Positions 8,608-15,351 of a stretch of DNA of 38,456 nt are shown in pieces. Numbering within the stretch: the first letter of the stretch is position 1; each line of letters begins with the position of its first letter. The position numbers and the translations under genes are program-made. Source of the DNA: Fibrobacter sp. UWR4 (GTDB lineage Bacteria > Fibrobacterota > Fibrobacteria > Fibrobacterales > Fibrobacteraceae); the NCBI RefSeq assembly GCF_003149045.1, contig NZ_QGDU01000032.1, forward strand, positions 1-38,456, written 5' to 3'. The notes beneath the pieces were generated by a model. That model searched no databases. It worked only from the letters and a program-made list of their open reading frames with translations, and was not told where the DNA came from.

Positions 8608-10308
8608 CTATTTGCTGAACGTCTGATGGGTGATAAGCCAGGCCTTCAGGCGGTTCCAGTTGCTTTCTCCGTTTTTCCTAATGTTGCTGGGCATTCCGAA
8701 CATTACAAAGTCCCTTAGTTCCACATTGCCAATGTTCATGAAGGAATTTCCGCCTTCGTAATAGGGGAAACTGTCGCCCAACTTTAGGTCGGTATCGCGA
8801 AGAATCCCGCCGTCCACTGCTACGGAAAGGTGGTTTCCGACCATGACCATGGAGAAGATGTGCTCTTCGCCATCGAGCAAGTTTGCCTTGCCGTAGACGA
8901 CCGTATCTGTTACCACGGAATCAGTACCGCTGTAGACGCGGACGCAAACGCTCTTGGAGCCGGCCTCGCACTGAAGGATTTCGTAACCCTTAGGACGGCC
9001 GCTTTCAGTGGAATCTACGGTGCTTAGGAGAACCGCGGCTTCCTCGAACTCGCTGCCGTCGGCCTTGACCTTGAAGCTGAATCCCATATAGGTACGGTTC
9101 CAGTAGGCGGAACTGTTGACCAGGGCGGTGTCAGCCAAGGATTCCACAGCTGCAAAAATACTGGTTCTGCTGGAATAGGGGATTTCGTCAAAGAGAACGT
9201 AACTTGTAGCGTTCGTATCGATGAACGAGATTTCGGCCCAGTAAAGATCCTTGCTGCCTGCAGAAACGAGCTTTGTGATGCTGTTGCCGTTGATGATGTA
9301 AGGCTTTTCGGCGCTGGTCTTTACAGGGACCAGGATCCTTTCGATGGATTTATCTGATAGGGAATCTATCTGGTTGAGAACACTTTCCGGAAGCTCAAAA
9401 CTCAGGGTGTCCACCGCATCCTTAGCAATGATGGGTTCGCTTAACATTGCGCAGCGCATGGAAACCATTTCTTCGTCGCCGCTTGTTTTTTCGGTTTGTA
9501 CGGCACAAAGCTTTTGGTAAACTCCCTGAGGAACGTTTTTCATGACGAAGGTTCCCGCTTCGATTTCGTCGGCGCTCATCACGTGGCAAACGCCGATGTC
9601 ATCCAGGCAAGCGTTGTCGCCCTTCTGGAAGGCCTTGGCGGGGAGGGTGATGTCTGTTACCTTGCCTGCGGACTGTTCAGGAATTTCAAGATAGACGCTG
9701 TCGCCTTCGCCCATGCGCTTGTAGTCCTTGAAATTGATGGTGTGGACGCTTGCCAAGGTGCTGTCGCTGGAAGCCACCAGCAACTTGTAGTCGATGTAGG
9801 TGACGTGGGTAGCGTCGTCCACCTGTTCAAATTCGCCGTCTTCAAGGGGTGCAAAACCATGGTAGGTGGCCTTGTAGACTACGTTATCGAACTTGTAGGT
9901 TCCGTTGTCGTCGGTGGTGGTTTCTTTTCCGGAGCCACCGAAACTGGACAGGCGGACTCTGGCCAGTTTCAACGGGGAACCGCTTTCATCTGTGGCTGTG
10001 CCCTGGACGCTGACCATGGCGTAAGTGCGGTCGTAGGTGATGCAATTGGTTGTAACGTTGGATTTTAACAGGGCCTTCGTTGCATTCTTTTTTCCGATGT
10101 TTTCGGGAATGCTGTTGCTGCAGCTTTCAACATCTACAAGCCAGTCGCCATTGGCAGCCTGTTGGCCGGACTCGGTTTCGGTCCATACGCTTGCTGTGTT
10201 GGGATCGGAACAGCCCACGATGCCCGCGAGACTAAGACCAGCGATACCCACGCCAGCAATGAAACCACAAGCCTTCTGCAAATCGTAACTCATCATTCGC
10301 AATTTCAT
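8608..10308 (-). CDS. Large lipoprotein with carboxypeptidase-regulatory-like and LamG-like regions
   Basis: A 566-residue protein with a clear lipoprotein signal peptide: hydrophobic core GVGIAGLSLAG and lipobox IVGC, lipid Cys at about 33. Residues about 97-175 form a carboxypeptidase-regulatory-like beta sandwich (VQGTATDESGSPL, then TTTDDNGTYKFDNV). Residues about 395-545 resemble a LamG/concanavalin-like sandwich (strands GFSFKV, HIFSMVMVG, LSVAVDG), a fold common in polysaccharide-binding modules. No catalytic residues are recognised. It is translated immediately after the TIGR02147 regulator through a TAATG overlap at 10306-10310. A perfect palindrome lies 13 bases upstream of its start. 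The context suggests an envelope protein made under control of its own upstream regulator. Confidence 0.88.
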   Translation of the reverse strand: MKLRMMSYDLQKACGFIAGVGIAGLSLAGIVGCSDPNTASVWTETESGQQAANGDWLVDVESCSNSIPENIGKKNATKALLKSNVTTNCITYDRTYAMVSVQGTATDESGSPLKLARVRLSSFGGSGKETTTDDNGTYKFDNVVYKATYHGFAPLEDGEFEQVDDATHVTYIDYKLLVASSDSTLASVHTINFKDYKRMGEGDSVYLEIPEQSAGKVTDITLPAKAFQKGDNACLDDIGVCHVMSADEIEAGTFVMKNVPQGVYQKLCAVQTEKTSGDEEMVSMRCAMLSEPIIAKDAVDTLSFELPESVLNQIDSLSDKSIERILVPVKTSAEKPYIINGNSITKLVSAGSKDLYWAEISFIDTNATSYVLFDEIPYSSRTSIFAAVESLADTALVNSSAYWNRTYMGFSFKVKADGSEFEEAAVLLSTVDSTESGRPKGYEILQCEAGSKSVCVRVYSGTDSVVTDTVVYGKANLLDGEEHIFSMVMVGNHLSVAVDGGILRDTDLKLGDSFPYYEGGNSFMNIGNVELRDFVMFGMPSNIRKNGESNWNRLKAWLITHQTFSK

Positions 10309-11147
10309 TATTTACCCCCGTTGTTCTCAAGATTTGAGAACATATGCAAATTCAGCTGATATACGCCGTCGGCCTTTTCCTTGTCTTGTGAAATAATCTG
10401 GCGGGCCTTTGCCTTGAATTCCTGCACCGCCTCCTCCAATTCCTTATAGGCGTTGCTAGACGCGCTAAAGGTCAAAGTGCTCATGATGGCCGGAGCCTTA
10501 GGAGGCGTCATCAGCGCCTGCTTGGAAAGTTCAAAACACTGCAGCTGGTATTGCTTGATCAGCTCCGCGTTGTTGTAGGGTCCGCTGGAAATGGATTCCT
10601 TGGTAGGCTTCCAGAAACCGTCTTCATTCTTGCGGGTAAGTCCCAGTCGCTGCAACAGGTCCAGAGAATCCTTTAGCTTACCCAGGGGAACCTTGGGGAA
10701 AATTCTCTTCTGGACGGGGGCCATGTCGTCTGTAACGTCCATGGCGTCCAGGATGGCGAACAGGGCGCTGTTATACCAGTGGTTGTAATATTCGTAGGCG
10801 TCCGTGTTCATGATGTGCTGCGGATTGGGGTGCATCTGCAGCAGTTCTTCCATGGCTTCCTTGCGGAGGTTGTCGTTCTTGGCCTGGTCCACCTTCACCA
10901 TGATTTCGAAGTACTTGGCTTCCTTCTTTTCGAGGCCAAGGACTTCAATAAACTTGGCTACCATACGGGGGCTGACCTTTTTACCGCGGAGCACGTCGGC
11001 AAAGTAGCTGCGGGATTTTTCCATGCCCAGCAGGTTGCAGATTTCGGTACGGGTAAAAGTGGGCTCGGACTGCACGCGGGCGGCCTGGTATTCTTCCAAA
11101 TACTTACGGAAGTGAGTAAACTGAAAAATGTCGATATAGTTTTTCAC
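10308..11147 (-). CDS. TIGR02147/DUF4423 family regulator (paralog 1)
   Basis: A 279-residue soluble protein of the TIGR02147 family, a Fibrobacter-expanded group carrying DUF4423. The N-terminus (IFQFTHFRKYLEEYQ at about 7-21) and the following segment (FTRTEICNLLGMEKSRSYF, then VLRGKKVSPRMVAKFIEVLGL) look like an Xre-type helix-turn-helix. The C-terminal part has the family KEAKYFEIMVKVDQAK and SSGPYNNAELIKQYQ patterns. The start is GTG at 11147; no better start lies upstream and no strong Shine-Dalgarno is visible. An operator-like half-site TTTGAGAAC abuts the GTG. It is coupled to the lipoprotein gene by TAATG and divergent from the M6 protease gene. A DNA-binding role is inferred. Confidence 0.85.
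   Translation of the reverse strand: MKNYIDIFQFTHFRKYLEEYQAARVQSEPTFTRTEICNLLGMEKSRSYFADVLRGKKVSPRMVAKFIEVLGLEKKEAKYFEIMVKVDQAKNDNLRKEAMEELLQMHPNPQHIMNTDAYEYYNHWYNSALFAILDAMDVTDDMAPVQKRIFPKVPLGKLKDSLDLLQRLGLTRKNEDGFWKPTKESISSGPYNNAELIKQYQLQCFELSKQALMTPPKAPAIMSTLTFSASSNAYKELEEAVQEFKAKARQIISQDKEKADGVYQLNLHMFSNLENNGGK
10322..10342. promoter_or_regulatory. Perfect palindrome, candidate operator
   Basis: TGTTCTCAA (10322-10330) and TTGAGAACA (10334-10342) are exact inverted repeats around a 3-base GAT spacer. The element sits in the last codons of the regulator gene, just upstream of the lipoprotein start. The half-site matches those beside the regulator's own start, so it could be an operator or an RNA hairpin affecting coupling. 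Confidence 0.6.
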
Positions 11148-11198
11148 GTTCTCAAATATAACTATTTTTTACATAAAAATGAGAAAATTTTTGAGAAC
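11148..11198. promoter_or_regulatory. Inverted half-sites at the regulator start
   Basis: GTTCTCAAA (11148-11156) and TTTGAGAAC (11190-11198) are exact inverted repeats with a 33-base spacer. The first touches the GTG start codon of the regulator gene. They share the core of the palindrome at 10322-10342, which supports an autoregulatory operator pair. Confidence 0.55.
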
Positions 11199-11304
11199 TT
11201 CCTAGCGTTGTGACGAAACCGACAATTTTTGCCCTATTTCGTTGATCCTGGAAGTTTTTTAGTTGTTGTTCGGGATCGTTTTGCTCGATAATTACACGTT
11301 TTTT

Positions 11305-11350
11305 GTACTCAAAAGGTCCAATTTGCCCAAAAAAGGGGTATTTTTGAGAA
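11305..11350. promoter_or_regulatory. Second inverted half-site pair, ahead of the M6 protease gene
   Basis: GTACTCAAA (11305-11313, one change from GTTCTCAAA) faces TTTTTGAGAA (11341-11350). The pair lies just before the ribosome-binding site AGAGG (11351-11355) of the protease gene and mirrors the pair at 11148-11198 in orientation and size. Confidence 0.45.
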
Positions 11351-11363
11351 AGAGGTATTATTT

Positions 11364-13328
11364 ATGGGCGTTTTTAATCACGGGATTTTTATTTCTGCAG
11401 GCTTGCTTGGTCTAAGCCTTTGTTCTACCCTTTTTGCCCATCCTGCAGCTCCCGATGCGCCAAAGACTGTAAAGAATGCCGATGGTTCCGAAGTAACCCT
11501 TCAGTTCTATGGGGATGAACATTACCATTACGCCACGACTCAAGACGGGTACTTGGTTGTTTCGGATAGTGGTTCCTTTGTGTATGCCGACGAAGATGGT
11601 AAGCCTACGAAGGTGAAAGCCCGTAATGAGCACAAACGTACGGAAAAGGAACAAAAATTCCTAAAGGGACTGGATCGTCAGAAGTCCAAAAAAATGCACC
11701 GTGCAAGACATGTGGATAAATATCCCGAAGAATCTGCGGAGGTCGACTCACTTGGCCCCGTAGCGCTCCGTAAGGCTCCTGCCGCATTGAATCGTCCCAC
11801 ACCTCAACGGTGGGTGGTGGGAGAACGTTGGATTCCAGTCCTTCTCATTGGAACTACGGACAAGCCTTATGCGGATTCCGCCGAAGTTTATGCCATGCTG
11901 AACCAGGAAGGCTATAATAAGGAAGGGAATATTGGCAGCCTTAGAGATTACTATCTGTTTTCTTCCGGTGGTAAGTTTAGCCCTCACTTTGATGTATATC
12001 CATTACAGTTGAATGTCCCCTTGACCAGTTTTGGTAATGGGGATAGCTATAGCGAAGGAAACTTCACCAAGGCGGGGGTAAATGCCCTGACCGCTCGCAA
12101 GGATTTCCAGCAGAATGCTTCCAAGTATTGTTCTAGCGGAACCGCAGTGGACGGATTCATTTTCCTATTTCCGGGAAAGGAAGTGGATGCCCTTAAGCAG
12201 AGCGAGAAGTTTTGGGGGCATCAGTACTGGATGCAGTACAATGGAGCGGGATCCTCCTGGTCTAAAGGTTATACTAGCCAGGGGTATACCTTTAACACAT
12301 ATTTGTTTATTGCACAGTATGACGATTATCCGCAGAGTCGTACCTTGACTGCCATGGGTATTTTTGCCCACGAATTCAGCCATGTGTTGGGCCTTGCTGA
12401 TTTGTATTCCGTTTCCAATTCTTCCATTAAGGGTCCCTCTCCTTATGATGTGATGACCACTGGCATGTATAATGGAAACTGGCAGACTCCGCCCTCTTTT
12501 TCCGCCTTTGAAAGGGAGTCCATGGGGTGGCTTACCTTGGAAGAACTTTCCCAGAATAAGGTTTATTCTCTCGGTCCTTTGTCCCAGATGCAGGCCTATT
12601 CGGTAACCAATCCCAACAGTAAGGACGAATACTATGTGGTGGAGTATAGGCCTGCAGAAAAGTACGATGCCTATATTGGGCAAAATAAAAACGGCATTTA
12701 CTTGTGGTATATCGATTATGATTACACAGCCTTCGAGACGGACAACGACCCTAACAAAAACGTGTTGCATCAGCGAGTGGCTGTAAAGCAGGTGATGGGT
12801 AGCGACAATAGCTACTACACAGATTTTTCCTATACAAATGCTGGTGGAACGGCTTTGATTCCTGGCATCTACAATTTGAAAATTCTGAAAGGAAAACAGG
12901 CCTGCTTTGCTACCGGTGCAAATCTATCCGTGGATTGTCAGCTGCGTTCATCCTCCAGTAGCCAGGTCGCGCTATCTTCCAGTAGCCTGGTTGTTCAATC
13001 CTCCAGCAGCCAGATTGCTCAATCCTCCAGCAGCCAGATTGCTCAATCTTCCAGTAGTTTGTCCGCTCCGTCCTCCAGTAGTCAACTTGCGCAATCGTCT
13101 AGCAGTTCCGAGAGTTTGCGCATCACCAATCCGTTGTATTGGGATTCTCAGACTGGTGTCAAGACCGTTAAGGTATTTGATCTTCAAGGGAACCGAGTCT
13201 ATATGGGTCAAGTAGATGGAGTTCTTTCCGCCTTCCATCTGGAAGGAATTCTTCCTGCGGGGGCCTACGTCATGCATGTTTCTCGAAACAATCGAACTCT
13301 TGGAATTCGGAAAATCAGAATTCCGTGA
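11364..13328 (+). CDS. Secreted M6-family metalloprotease with polyserine linker and C-terminal sorting-like domain
   Basis: A 654-residue protein with a Sec signal peptide, predicted to be cut after STLFA at about residue 25. A propeptide-like region reaches about 145. The catalytic domain (about 150-500) carries HEFSHVLGLAD at 336-346: zinc ligands His336 and His340 with catalytic Glu337, and the HExxHxxGxxD pattern of M6 (immune inhibitor A-like) peptidases. PYDVMTTGMY at about 360-369 provides the Met-turn. Residues about 530-577 are six 8-residue SSSSxxxx units. The C-terminal 65 residues (VKVFDLQGNRVY, then LPAGAYVMHV) form a beta module like those used as anchoring or secretion tags. 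AGAGG at 11351-11355 supports the ATG. The predicted role is extracellular protein digestion or processing. Confidence 0.93.
   Translation: MGVFNHGIFISAGLLGLSLCSTLFAHPAAPDAPKTVKNADGSEVTLQFYGDEHYHYATTQDGYLVVSDSGSFVYADEDGKPTKVKARNEHKRTEKEQKFLKGLDRQKSKKMHRARHVDKYPEESAEVDSLGPVALRKAPAALNRPTPQRWVVGERWIPVLLIGTTDKPYADSAEVYAMLNQEGYNKEGNIGSLRDYYLFSSGGKFSPHFDVYPLQLNVPLTSFGNGDSYSEGNFTKAGVNALTARKDFQQNASKYCSSGTAVDGFIFLFPGKEVDALKQSEKFWGHQYWMQYNGAGSSWSKGYTSQGYTFNTYLFIAQYDDYPQSRTLTAMGIFAHEFSHVLGLADLYSVSNSSIKGPSPYDVMTTGMYNGNWQTPPSFSAFERESMGWLTLEELSQNKVYSLGPLSQMQAYSVTNPNSKDEYYVVEYRPAEKYDAYIGQNKNGIYLWYIDYDYTAFETDNDPNKNVLHQRVAVKQVMGSDNSYYTDFSYTNAGGTALIPGIYNLKILKGKQACFATGANLSVDCQLRSSSSSQVALSSSSLVVQSSSSQIAQSSSSQIAQSSSSLSAPSSSSQLAQSSSSSESLRITNPLYWDSQTGVKTVKVFDLQGNRVYMGQVDGVLSAFHLEGILPAGAYVMHVSRNNRTLGIRKIRIP
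12951..13094 (+). repeat. 24-bp coding tandem repeat (SSSSxxxx x 6)
   Basis: Six in-frame 24-bp units encode SSSSQVAL, SSSSLVVQ, SSSSQIAQ twice, SSSSLSAP and SSSSQLAQ. Units three and four are nearly identical in DNA, which points to recent slippage or unequal recombination. The product is the flexible linker between the protease and its C-terminal domain. Confidence 0.85.
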
Positions 13329-14309: not shown

Positions 14310-15167
14310 CTACTTGTCCGCCTTGCCGCCCACCTGGAATAGGGCGAATTCCATCTGGAATACTTTATCGCTGCCGGCATCTTCTTCGGCGATGAGGGCG
14401 ATTTCCTTACGGAAAGCGTTGATACGTTCCACGATGCGTTCGTAACCTTCCTGGCTGATGCCGAGGGTTAGGCCTGAGATATGGCGCTTGCCCGGCGGAT
14501 CGCGGTCGATGGAATCGGCGCCCATCTTGAGGCAATTCTGGTGGTAACCACGAAGTGCCAGTTTGGAGGTGCGGTCACCGGTGGTGATGGCGCTTTCCGT
14601 CAGGATGTACTTGCCGTTCTCGTCCTTCTTGATGAGCTGGCACTCTTCCAGGAGTTTTACCGACTGCTTGGCTTCTTCAGGTGTGATTTTGGGATTCACC
14701 AGTTTTGCTAATGCCCCGTAGTCTCCGTCAAATCCGAACATTCCAATCAAGCTTCGGATAAAAAGATGGCGGGGATGGGAGTAGATCATGTACTGTGCGT
14801 GACCTAATAAATGCTGTTTTTCGGCGAAACGGACTACCTTTAAGGCTGCCTGCATTTTTTCGAATGCGGTATTGCGGTCTTCGGTGGTTTCTGCCTGGTT
14901 GAATTCTACAAGACCGATGAAAAATTCCGTCTCGTGCTTTCCTAGGCGAAGTCCGGAGGCTACCTTAGGAATGCTTTGCTGGCTCAGGTTCTTTTCGCCA
15001 TTCATGACTCGGCTGATGAAGTCCTTGGCCTTGAAGCCAATCTTGTCAGAAAATACGCGCAGGGAGAAAGCGGCGTTTGCAGCCTTCTTCTGGTTGTAAT
15101 AGTCTTTCAGAAATTCCCTGTAATCCAGGTATTCGAAGACTTTTTTCTGTTTTTTCGTTTCAGCCAT
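14310..15167 (-). CDS. TIGR02147/DUF4423 family regulator (paralog 2)
   Basis: A second member of the same regulator family, 285 residues from the ATG at 15167; a TTG two codons upstream (15173) is possible but less likely. The N-terminal signature VFEYLDYREFLKDYYNQKK (about 11-29) is classic for TIGR02147. A helix-turn-helix-like stretch follows (FSLRVFSDKIGFKAKDFISRVMNGEKNLS). The C-terminal half has the DUF4423 patterns (KLLEECQLIKKDENGKYILTE; SGLTLGISQEGYERI). Like paralog 1 it lacks a clear Shine-Dalgarno and has T-rich TTTGAG just before its start. It is divergent from the pectate lyase gene, so that enzyme is a natural candidate target. Regulation of it is inferred from position only. 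Confidence 0.87.
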   Translation of the reverse strand: MAETKKQKKVFEYLDYREFLKDYYNQKKAANAAFSLRVFSDKIGFKAKDFISRVMNGEKNLSQQSIPKVASGLRLGKHETEFFIGLVEFNQAETTEDRNTAFEKMQAALKVVRFAEKQHLLGHAQYMIYSHPRHLFIRSLIGMFGFDGDYGALAKLVNPKITPEEAKQSVKLLEECQLIKKDENGKYILTESAITTGDRTSKLALRGYHQNCLKMGADSIDRDPPGKRHISGLTLGISQEGYERIVERINAFRKEIALIAEEDAGSDKVFQMEFALFQVGGKADK

Positions 15168-15351
15168 GCTCAAAATGTAAGAAAATGTTCAAAAATAGGA
15201 ATGAAAAAAACATTTTTGCCGTTGTCTAGGAACAACGATATTCTGTGATGAAAAGAAAAAAGGGTGGTTAAAATCACACTTTTAGGGTACATTTTACATG
15301 TGTTTGGATGCGACGGTTAAAATAAGGCCGTTGTCTAAAAAGGGATGTAAA
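15168..15351. promoter_or_regulatory. Divergent control region between regulator 2 and the pectate lyase
   Basis: 184 bases hold both promoters. Visible structure: near-direct repeats ATGCTCAAAA and ATGTTCAAAA about 19 bases apart next to the regulator start (about 15165-15195); GCCGTTGTCTA at 15218-15228 and exactly again at 15327-15337; and CGTTGT/ACAACG inverted around 15220-15237. The repeated 11-mer flanks the presumed lyase promoter and is a candidate regulator binding site. Confidence 0.45.

Follow-up and report, generated by a model that had tools for sequence, protein, structure and literature searches.

In Fibrobacter, which DNA word does a TIGR02147 regulator read, and which genes does it control? 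Within the window, a stretch of 38,456 nucleotides from Fibrobacter sp. UWR4, one such gene is followed directly by a lipoprotein gene, and copies of a short half-site lie around the regulator. The genome paper of F. succinogenes S85 described the transcriptional control of cellulase genes as an unanswered question, with few regulators nearby (PMC3079729). Our search of openly accessible literature found no function, operator or regulon for TIGR02147 (Fsuc_second)/DUF4423; TIGR02147 was not mentioned, and DUF4423 appeared once, in a Bdellovibrio table. From the analysis below, we consider it likely that the regulator reads pairs of the word GTTCTCA and controls its own operon together with secreted pectate lyases and glycoside hydrolases, most likely by repression. 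The features of the locus are as follows.

8608..10308, minus strand: lipoprotein, second gene of the operon, with a lipobox (GC33), an ASVWTETESG segment, a CarboxypepD_reg-like domain and a C-terminal concanavalin/lectin-like domain
10308..11147, minus strand: TIGR02147/DUF4423 regulator of 279 aa with a GTG start (profile searches, 49-member alignment, AlphaFold model, structural neighbours)
Regulator residues 43-56: putative recognition helix EKSRSYFADVLRGK within the N-terminal HTH (alignment of 49 family members)
10322..10342, no strand assigned: perfect 9+9 palindrome TGTTCTCAA-GAT-TTGAGAACA, 14-34 nt before the lipoprotein ATG
11148..11155, minus strand: extra half-site TTGAGAAC between the regulator -10 and the GTG
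11155..11160, minus strand: predicted -10 box TATATT of the regulator-lipoprotein operon, read from the sequence; TATATT is kept in orthologs
11180..11198, minus strand: predicted operator, direct repeat GTTCTCA-N5-TTCTCA with a 12-bp period, upstream of the regulator -10 and covering the -35 region

The regulator and its lipoprotein partner

The regulator is a full-length member of NCBIfam TIGR02147 (286.1 bits against a curated cut-off of 50, residues 5-273), and its C-terminal side matches DUF4423 of Pfam (81.2 bits against a cut-off of 30, residues 108-271). At the N-terminus, Pfam HTH_31 scored 18.4 bits, under its cut-off of 27, and this region of the model matches the HTH of HigA/PA4674 with Z of 7-8; the assignment of an N-terminal HTH thus rests on the family alignment and a medium-confidence model. 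The DUF4423 region (about 112-200) matches a winged-helix fold in the model (VIA-align Z 6-7 over 60-90 residues). Because Foldseek with the model returned no match at E<=0.001, the fold claim is limited to an HTH and a winged-helix-like domain. Pfam and NCBIfam searches of the regulator and its lipoprotein partner gave only DUF4423 and HTH in the former and CarboxypepD_reg in the latter, with sensor kinase, response regulator, sigma and anti-sigma domains absent from both. The UWR4 genome contains 26 TIGR02147 matches (25 near full length and one fragment) and its relatives contain tens, and the named relatives of the regulator are all from Fibrobacter. A second TIGR02147 paralog lies in the window (14310-15173, minus strand); no lipoprotein was found after it, and neither inspection by eye nor a k-mer count revealed a clear repeated word upstream of it.

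To place the locus in the genus, 80 Fibrobacter genomes were sampled, in which orthologs of the regulator are termed class A and its paralogs with 57-64% and 43-48% identity are termed classes B and C, respectively. The regulator TAA overlaps the lipoprotein ATG (TAATG), so the two genes are taken as an operon; an overlap between the stop of a TIGR02147 gene and the start of the following lipoprotein gene is often seen. A lipoprotein with ET[EN][ST]G is encoded downstream of nearly all class A, B and C regulators, and a lipoprotein follows about 21 of the 26 TIGR02147 matches of UWR4. Among class A lipoproteins, which share 22-57% identity, V41 and E44-T45-E46-S47-G48 are invariant after the lipid-bearing cysteine. 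An AGxxxET[EN]xG/N segment after the lipobox cysteine recurs in the window (8608-10308), in L001-L025 and in L237-L287, although these proteins are otherwise highly divergent. The segment may serve as a signalling or export peptide. Pfam PF13620 (CarboxypepD_reg) was found in the lipoprotein of the window, and the C-terminal domain of its model resembles CBM40, galectin and other lectin-type folds, a fold common to many unrelated proteins. Toxin binding domains, which top the list of fold matches, were set aside since they share only this common lectin-like fold. Downstream of the TIGR02147 paralog L003 (G000:C37:5098-7954), the lipoprotein reading frame includes a PL1 pectate lyase domain (L201), tying the lipoprotein partner directly to substrate.

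The predicted -10 box is only 7 nt from the GTG, so the regulator mRNA is probably leaderless. The same probably applies to the regulator mRNAs of classes A, B and C, as most of their -10 boxes, read from the sequences, end a few nucleotides from the start codon.

Half-site words in regulator promoters

Exact half-sites GTTCTCAA/TTGAGAAC were found at 10323-10330, 10334-10341, 11148-11155 and 11191-11198, and those around the regulator lie where the first-pass annotation had located them. The window contains six exact copies compared with 1.6 in first-order Markov simulations, and four copies within 900 nt occurred in 0/300 simulations. The copies at 11148 and 11191 had been read as an inverted pair touching the GTG. 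Both half-sites are present, but the conserved unit is the direct repeat at 11180-11198, of which only half had been noticed. The extra half-site at the GTG is restricted to close relatives (L027-L030, L032 and L034, plus L078 with 67% identity), and it occupies the same place relative to the -10 as the operators of pectate lyase genes described below.

Class A orthologs (79-95% identity) are present in 52 of the 80 genomes, and a relative with 67-68% identity in two more (hand tally). The word GTTCTCA occurs in the promoters of all 53 sampled class A-type orthologs, compared with about 0.7 expected from shuffles, identifying a conserved candidate operator in the regulator's own promoter. These promoters carry GTTCTCAAAAAnnTTCTCA or arrays like it; in most of them TATATT comes next, with the start codon a few nucleotides further on. 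Since the 53 promoters form 29 clusters at 75% identity, conservation of the word does not merely reflect unchanged DNA. The arrangements vary: some promoters have a pair at the -35, others one half-site between TTGACA and TATATT, and others a triple repeat reaching the -10. A constant word with shifting placement fits site turnover under one reader. The centres of neighbouring half-sites are 12 bp (32 pairs) or 13 bp (12 pairs) apart among the 44 class A pairs. We defined the paired site as GTTCTCAN4-8TTCTCA and searched for it genome-wide, with the reversed pattern as control; across the genus it gave 139 matches compared with 30 for the control (hand tally). The first-pass annotation had staked its operator idea on conservation of the motif at orthologous loci above background, and the idea survives that test, because the motif is kept at orthologs and stands far above background. 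Its proposal that the regulator controls itself and the lipoprotein is likewise plausible, given that almost every ortholog has the lipoprotein gene behind it in one operon.

The palindromic geometry fared less well. The pattern TTCTCAA-N-TTGAGAA had been put forward as the operator; it has no exact match in the window and one match with three mismatches compared with 2.8 expected, and the common form is the 12-bp direct repeat. The palindrome at 10322-10342 exists with its 9+9 arms, but its centre is 3 bp rather than 1 bp, and instead of being intergenic it occupies the last codons of the regulator (..HMFSNLENNGGK*). Its half-site centres are 12 bp apart. No other exact TTCTCAAN3TTGAGAA occurs in the 3.6-Mb genome, and this pattern with two mismatches allowed is not above the reversed control genome-wide. 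The palindrome is found in 5-6 close relatives and is absent from most class A and from all class B and C loci, so that it gives no support to a general operator of the lipoprotein's own. In the near clade, it could act as a lineage-specific accessory operator or as an mRNA hairpin. That it is unrelated to the operator, arising as a coding by-product or as a hairpin that tunes lipoprotein translation, has only slightly less than an even chance: FSNLE is a conserved protein sequence, and a 9-bp RNA hairpin (z -1.7) is predicted just before the GGGGG ribosome site. Such an unrelated origin is harder to reconcile with a 9-mer identical to that of the promoter operator, with the rare serine codon TCA (5%) retained in about half of class A, and with a probability of 6e-4 for the arms from codon usage alone. 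Moreover, five close relatives use identical codons for F, S, L, E and N (background 31% per codon), and the sole change within the palindrome is in its 3-nt centre.

We further asked whether other TIGR02147 groups have words of their own, and sampled two paralog groups, L001 and L013, beyond classes A, B and C. Class B promoters carry GTACTCA (22/22, compared with 0/53 in class A) and class C promoters GTACTA (11/11). The word is TGTTCCC in L001 orthologs (30/30), GTATCAT in the SPT/I/V/S proteins of the L013 group (18/19) and GTATA[AG] in its SPN proteins (11/11), the last being a short word with a higher shuffle background (3.2 of 11). Outside class A, GTTCTCA was found in 0/22 class B, 0/11 class C, 3/30 L001, 0/19 SPT/I/V/S and 0/11 SPN promoters. 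The cross-group table of these six groups is nearly diagonal, with off-diagonal counts at or near shuffle level except for GTTCTCA in L001 and GTATA[AG] in class C (6/11). Recognition-helix residues are RSYFAD in class A, RSY[YF]ND in class B and P[NH]TRSYFND in class C, with SPT/I/V/S or SPN in the two subgroups of L013; as read from the alignments, the half-site word changes along with these residues across TIGR02147 groups. The 12-bp spacing recurs in class B (42 pairs), class C (14) and SPN (9), the L001 group favours 11 bp (24) over 12 bp (7), and the GTATCAT group is mixed, with inverted half-sites 21 bp apart in seven and 12 bp apart in four. The class B site was found hardly anywhere but at the class B regulator genes, which leaves class A as the one class for which a regulon emerges. 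A mixed site, GTACTCAAnnnnnTTCTCAA, with a B-type half-site followed by an A-type one, recurs in one group of genomes at the following loci.

G005:C2:325737, G042:C1:560089, G045:C6:75608, G046:C2:346104
G052:C15:28913, G057:C3:3488, G067:C42:20230, G075:C44:7248

Enzyme promoters and the predicted mode of regulation

The paired site follows the presence of the regulator. The 54 genomes with the regulator contain 130 paired sites (2.4 each), whereas the 26 genomes without it contain nine (0.35 each, control 0.38; hand tallies). Pfam searches of the ORFs adjoining 83 non-regulator sites identified 44 PL1, 8 PL9, 11 BNR-repeat, 8 GH5 and 1 GH9 proteins; the BNR-repeat ORFs are read from their sequences as GH74-like. 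By tblastn, a PL1, PL9, GH74-like, GH5 or GH9 gene lies within 1.5 kb of 72/83 site loci compared with 0/30 control loci (Fisher 1.5e-18, a value that overstates independence because the target loci are related). The 82 target sites form 20 clusters at 70% identity, 11 enzyme-adjacent and nine not, the latter being about the number expected from chance matches. Site conservation, class-specific half-sites and the association of sites with enzymes and with the regulator are thus direct results of the computation. In the UWR4 genome, both exact non-regulator sites precede PL1 pectate lyases (promoters at C15:17501-17526 and C4:87735-87753), and a third PL1 gene (promoter at C2:101594-101606) has the half-site TATATTTTGAGAAC right after its -10, so that three of the six PL1 promoters carry a site. 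Two further candidates, TATATTTGAGAA at C9:76522, ahead of a gene identified by eye as FtsK-like, and C44:14801, have a half-site only or one mismatch, occur at the control rate and were regarded as chance. The genes predicted as main targets encode pectate lyases and glycoside hydrolases and are unlinked to the regulator; the first-pass annotation had missed them.

The placement of the sites bears on the sign of regulation. The usual order in 49 enzyme promoters is a -35 (TTGACT/TTGCTT), 17 bp, a -10 (TATATT/TAAATT) and then the operator TTTGAGAAnnnnTTTGAGAACA; the spacer is 17 bp in 43/49, and the operator starts 0-1 nt past the -10 in 44/49. Class B operators fill the spacer between -35 and -10. 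Because most enzyme operators directly follow the -10 and class B operators fill the spacer, repression is favoured and is the most likely mode of the regulator on sequence grounds. At 22 target loci, and in the regulator promoter of the window, the site is placed at the -35 or further upstream; activation also fits there, and looping may occur. The same regulator could accordingly use the same sites mainly to activate its own gene and those of the enzymes, a reading we regard as unlikely. In its favour, no -35 is recognisable in the regulator promoter of the window, where the operator covers that position, and the GH74-like, GH5 and some PL1 targets have a site upstream of the -35. However, the 44/49 sites of the commoner arrangement directly follow a good -35/-10 pair, and the class B sites, together with some of class A, fall into the -35/-10 spacer, where activators rarely act.

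The first-pass annotation had instead described three local site pairs, through which the regulator would act on its own gene, on the lipoprotein (by the 3' palindrome) and on the divergently encoded M6 protease. Ahead of the M6 gene, the halves of the near-match pair, GTACTCAA at 11305 and TTTCTCAA at 11344, each have one mismatch, and one-mismatch half-sites in the window are at background (36 compared with 38 expected). No position of a half-site is conserved upstream of M6 genes in relatives, so the protease drops out as a target. We therefore hold this local layout improbable. In its favour, exact half-sites do lie at the regulator and in the palindrome, five close relatives keep the codons of the palindrome to an unusual degree, and an M6-like divergent gene accompanies about 24 class A loci. 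Against it, the M6 pair does not exceed background, and the palindrome is missing from most class A loci and from every class B and C locus. The M6-family metalloprotease gene itself (window 11364-13328) is a recurrent divergent neighbour, and M6 promoters share a conserved upstream element of their own, AAAAAGGGnTTATTTT.

It is more improbable still that a different DNA-binding protein reads the repeats and happens to regulate TIGR02147 operons and the enzymes, since, although conserved promoter elements alone do not identify a binding protein, six regulator groups have six half-sites that each track their own recognition helix, and the number of sites drops to background in genomes lacking the class A gene.

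Returning to the regulator as a repressor reading GTTCTCA pairs, we infer physical binding, repression, a cue and a role for the lipoprotein as follows. The regulator would be a one-component regulator whose N-terminal HTH reads the half-site GTTCTCA, with an operator made of two half-sites at a distance of 12 bp that mostly point the same way. It would control its own regulator-lipoprotein operon and, in trans, the genes of secreted enzymes: in UWR4 through the promoters of three of its six PL1 pectate lyase genes, and in relatives also through those of PL9, GH74-like, GH5 and GH9 enzymes. Bound just past the -10, it would block polymerase at most enzyme promoters, and a plant-polysaccharide cue would relieve repression. 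The co-transcribed lipoprotein, with its lectin-like domain, would be the best candidate for sensing or surface contact and could serve in surface sensing or adhesion.

Meaning and relation to known systems

Autoregulated one-component regulators are already known; what is new is a proposed operator word, a lipoprotein partner and a computed regulon for an uncharacterised and highly expanded family. A large unnamed regulator family gains a DNA word, a correlation with its recognition helix and a list of enzyme promoters, which opens the question of fibre-enzyme control to direct tests that need one purified protein and a few 60-bp probes. This offers a testable answer to how secreted pectin and plant-cell-wall enzymes of Fibrobacter are switched on and off, and predictable means of steering the pectin and hemicellulose enzymes of rumen bacteria. 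More tentatively, and with the odds somewhat against it, the roughly 25 TIGR02147 proteins per Fibrobacter genome might be parallel, mutually insulated switches, each with its own operator word, regulon and co-transcribed surface lipoprotein (post-cysteine ET[EN]xG/N), and together a missing regulatory layer of plant-fibre degradation in the phylum. In such switches, the signal would go from an outer-membrane lipoprotein to a soluble repressor.

Compared with what is recorded for TIGR02147 (Fsuc_second)/DUF4423, of which the regulator is a full-length member, the class-specific operator and the enzyme regulon proposed here are different. HigA/PA4674-type HTH (XRE) autorepressors resemble the N-terminal HTH of the regulator model and also occupy their own promoters, whereas the regulator is without a toxin partner and has an additional winged-helix-like domain, 12-bp direct repeats and predicted CAZyme targets in trans. 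The likeness of its DUF4423 region to MarR/ArsR/MecI/PadR repressors is confined to the winged-helix fold (Z 6-7). Polysaccharide sensing in Bacteroides (SusR, hybrid two-component systems, ECF/anti-sigma) likewise pairs the regulation of secreted enzymes with surface proteins. In contrast, the regulator-lipoprotein pair is without a sensor kinase, an anti-sigma factor or a membrane-spanning part; its partner is a lipoprotein, and its predicted targets are unlinked in the genome.
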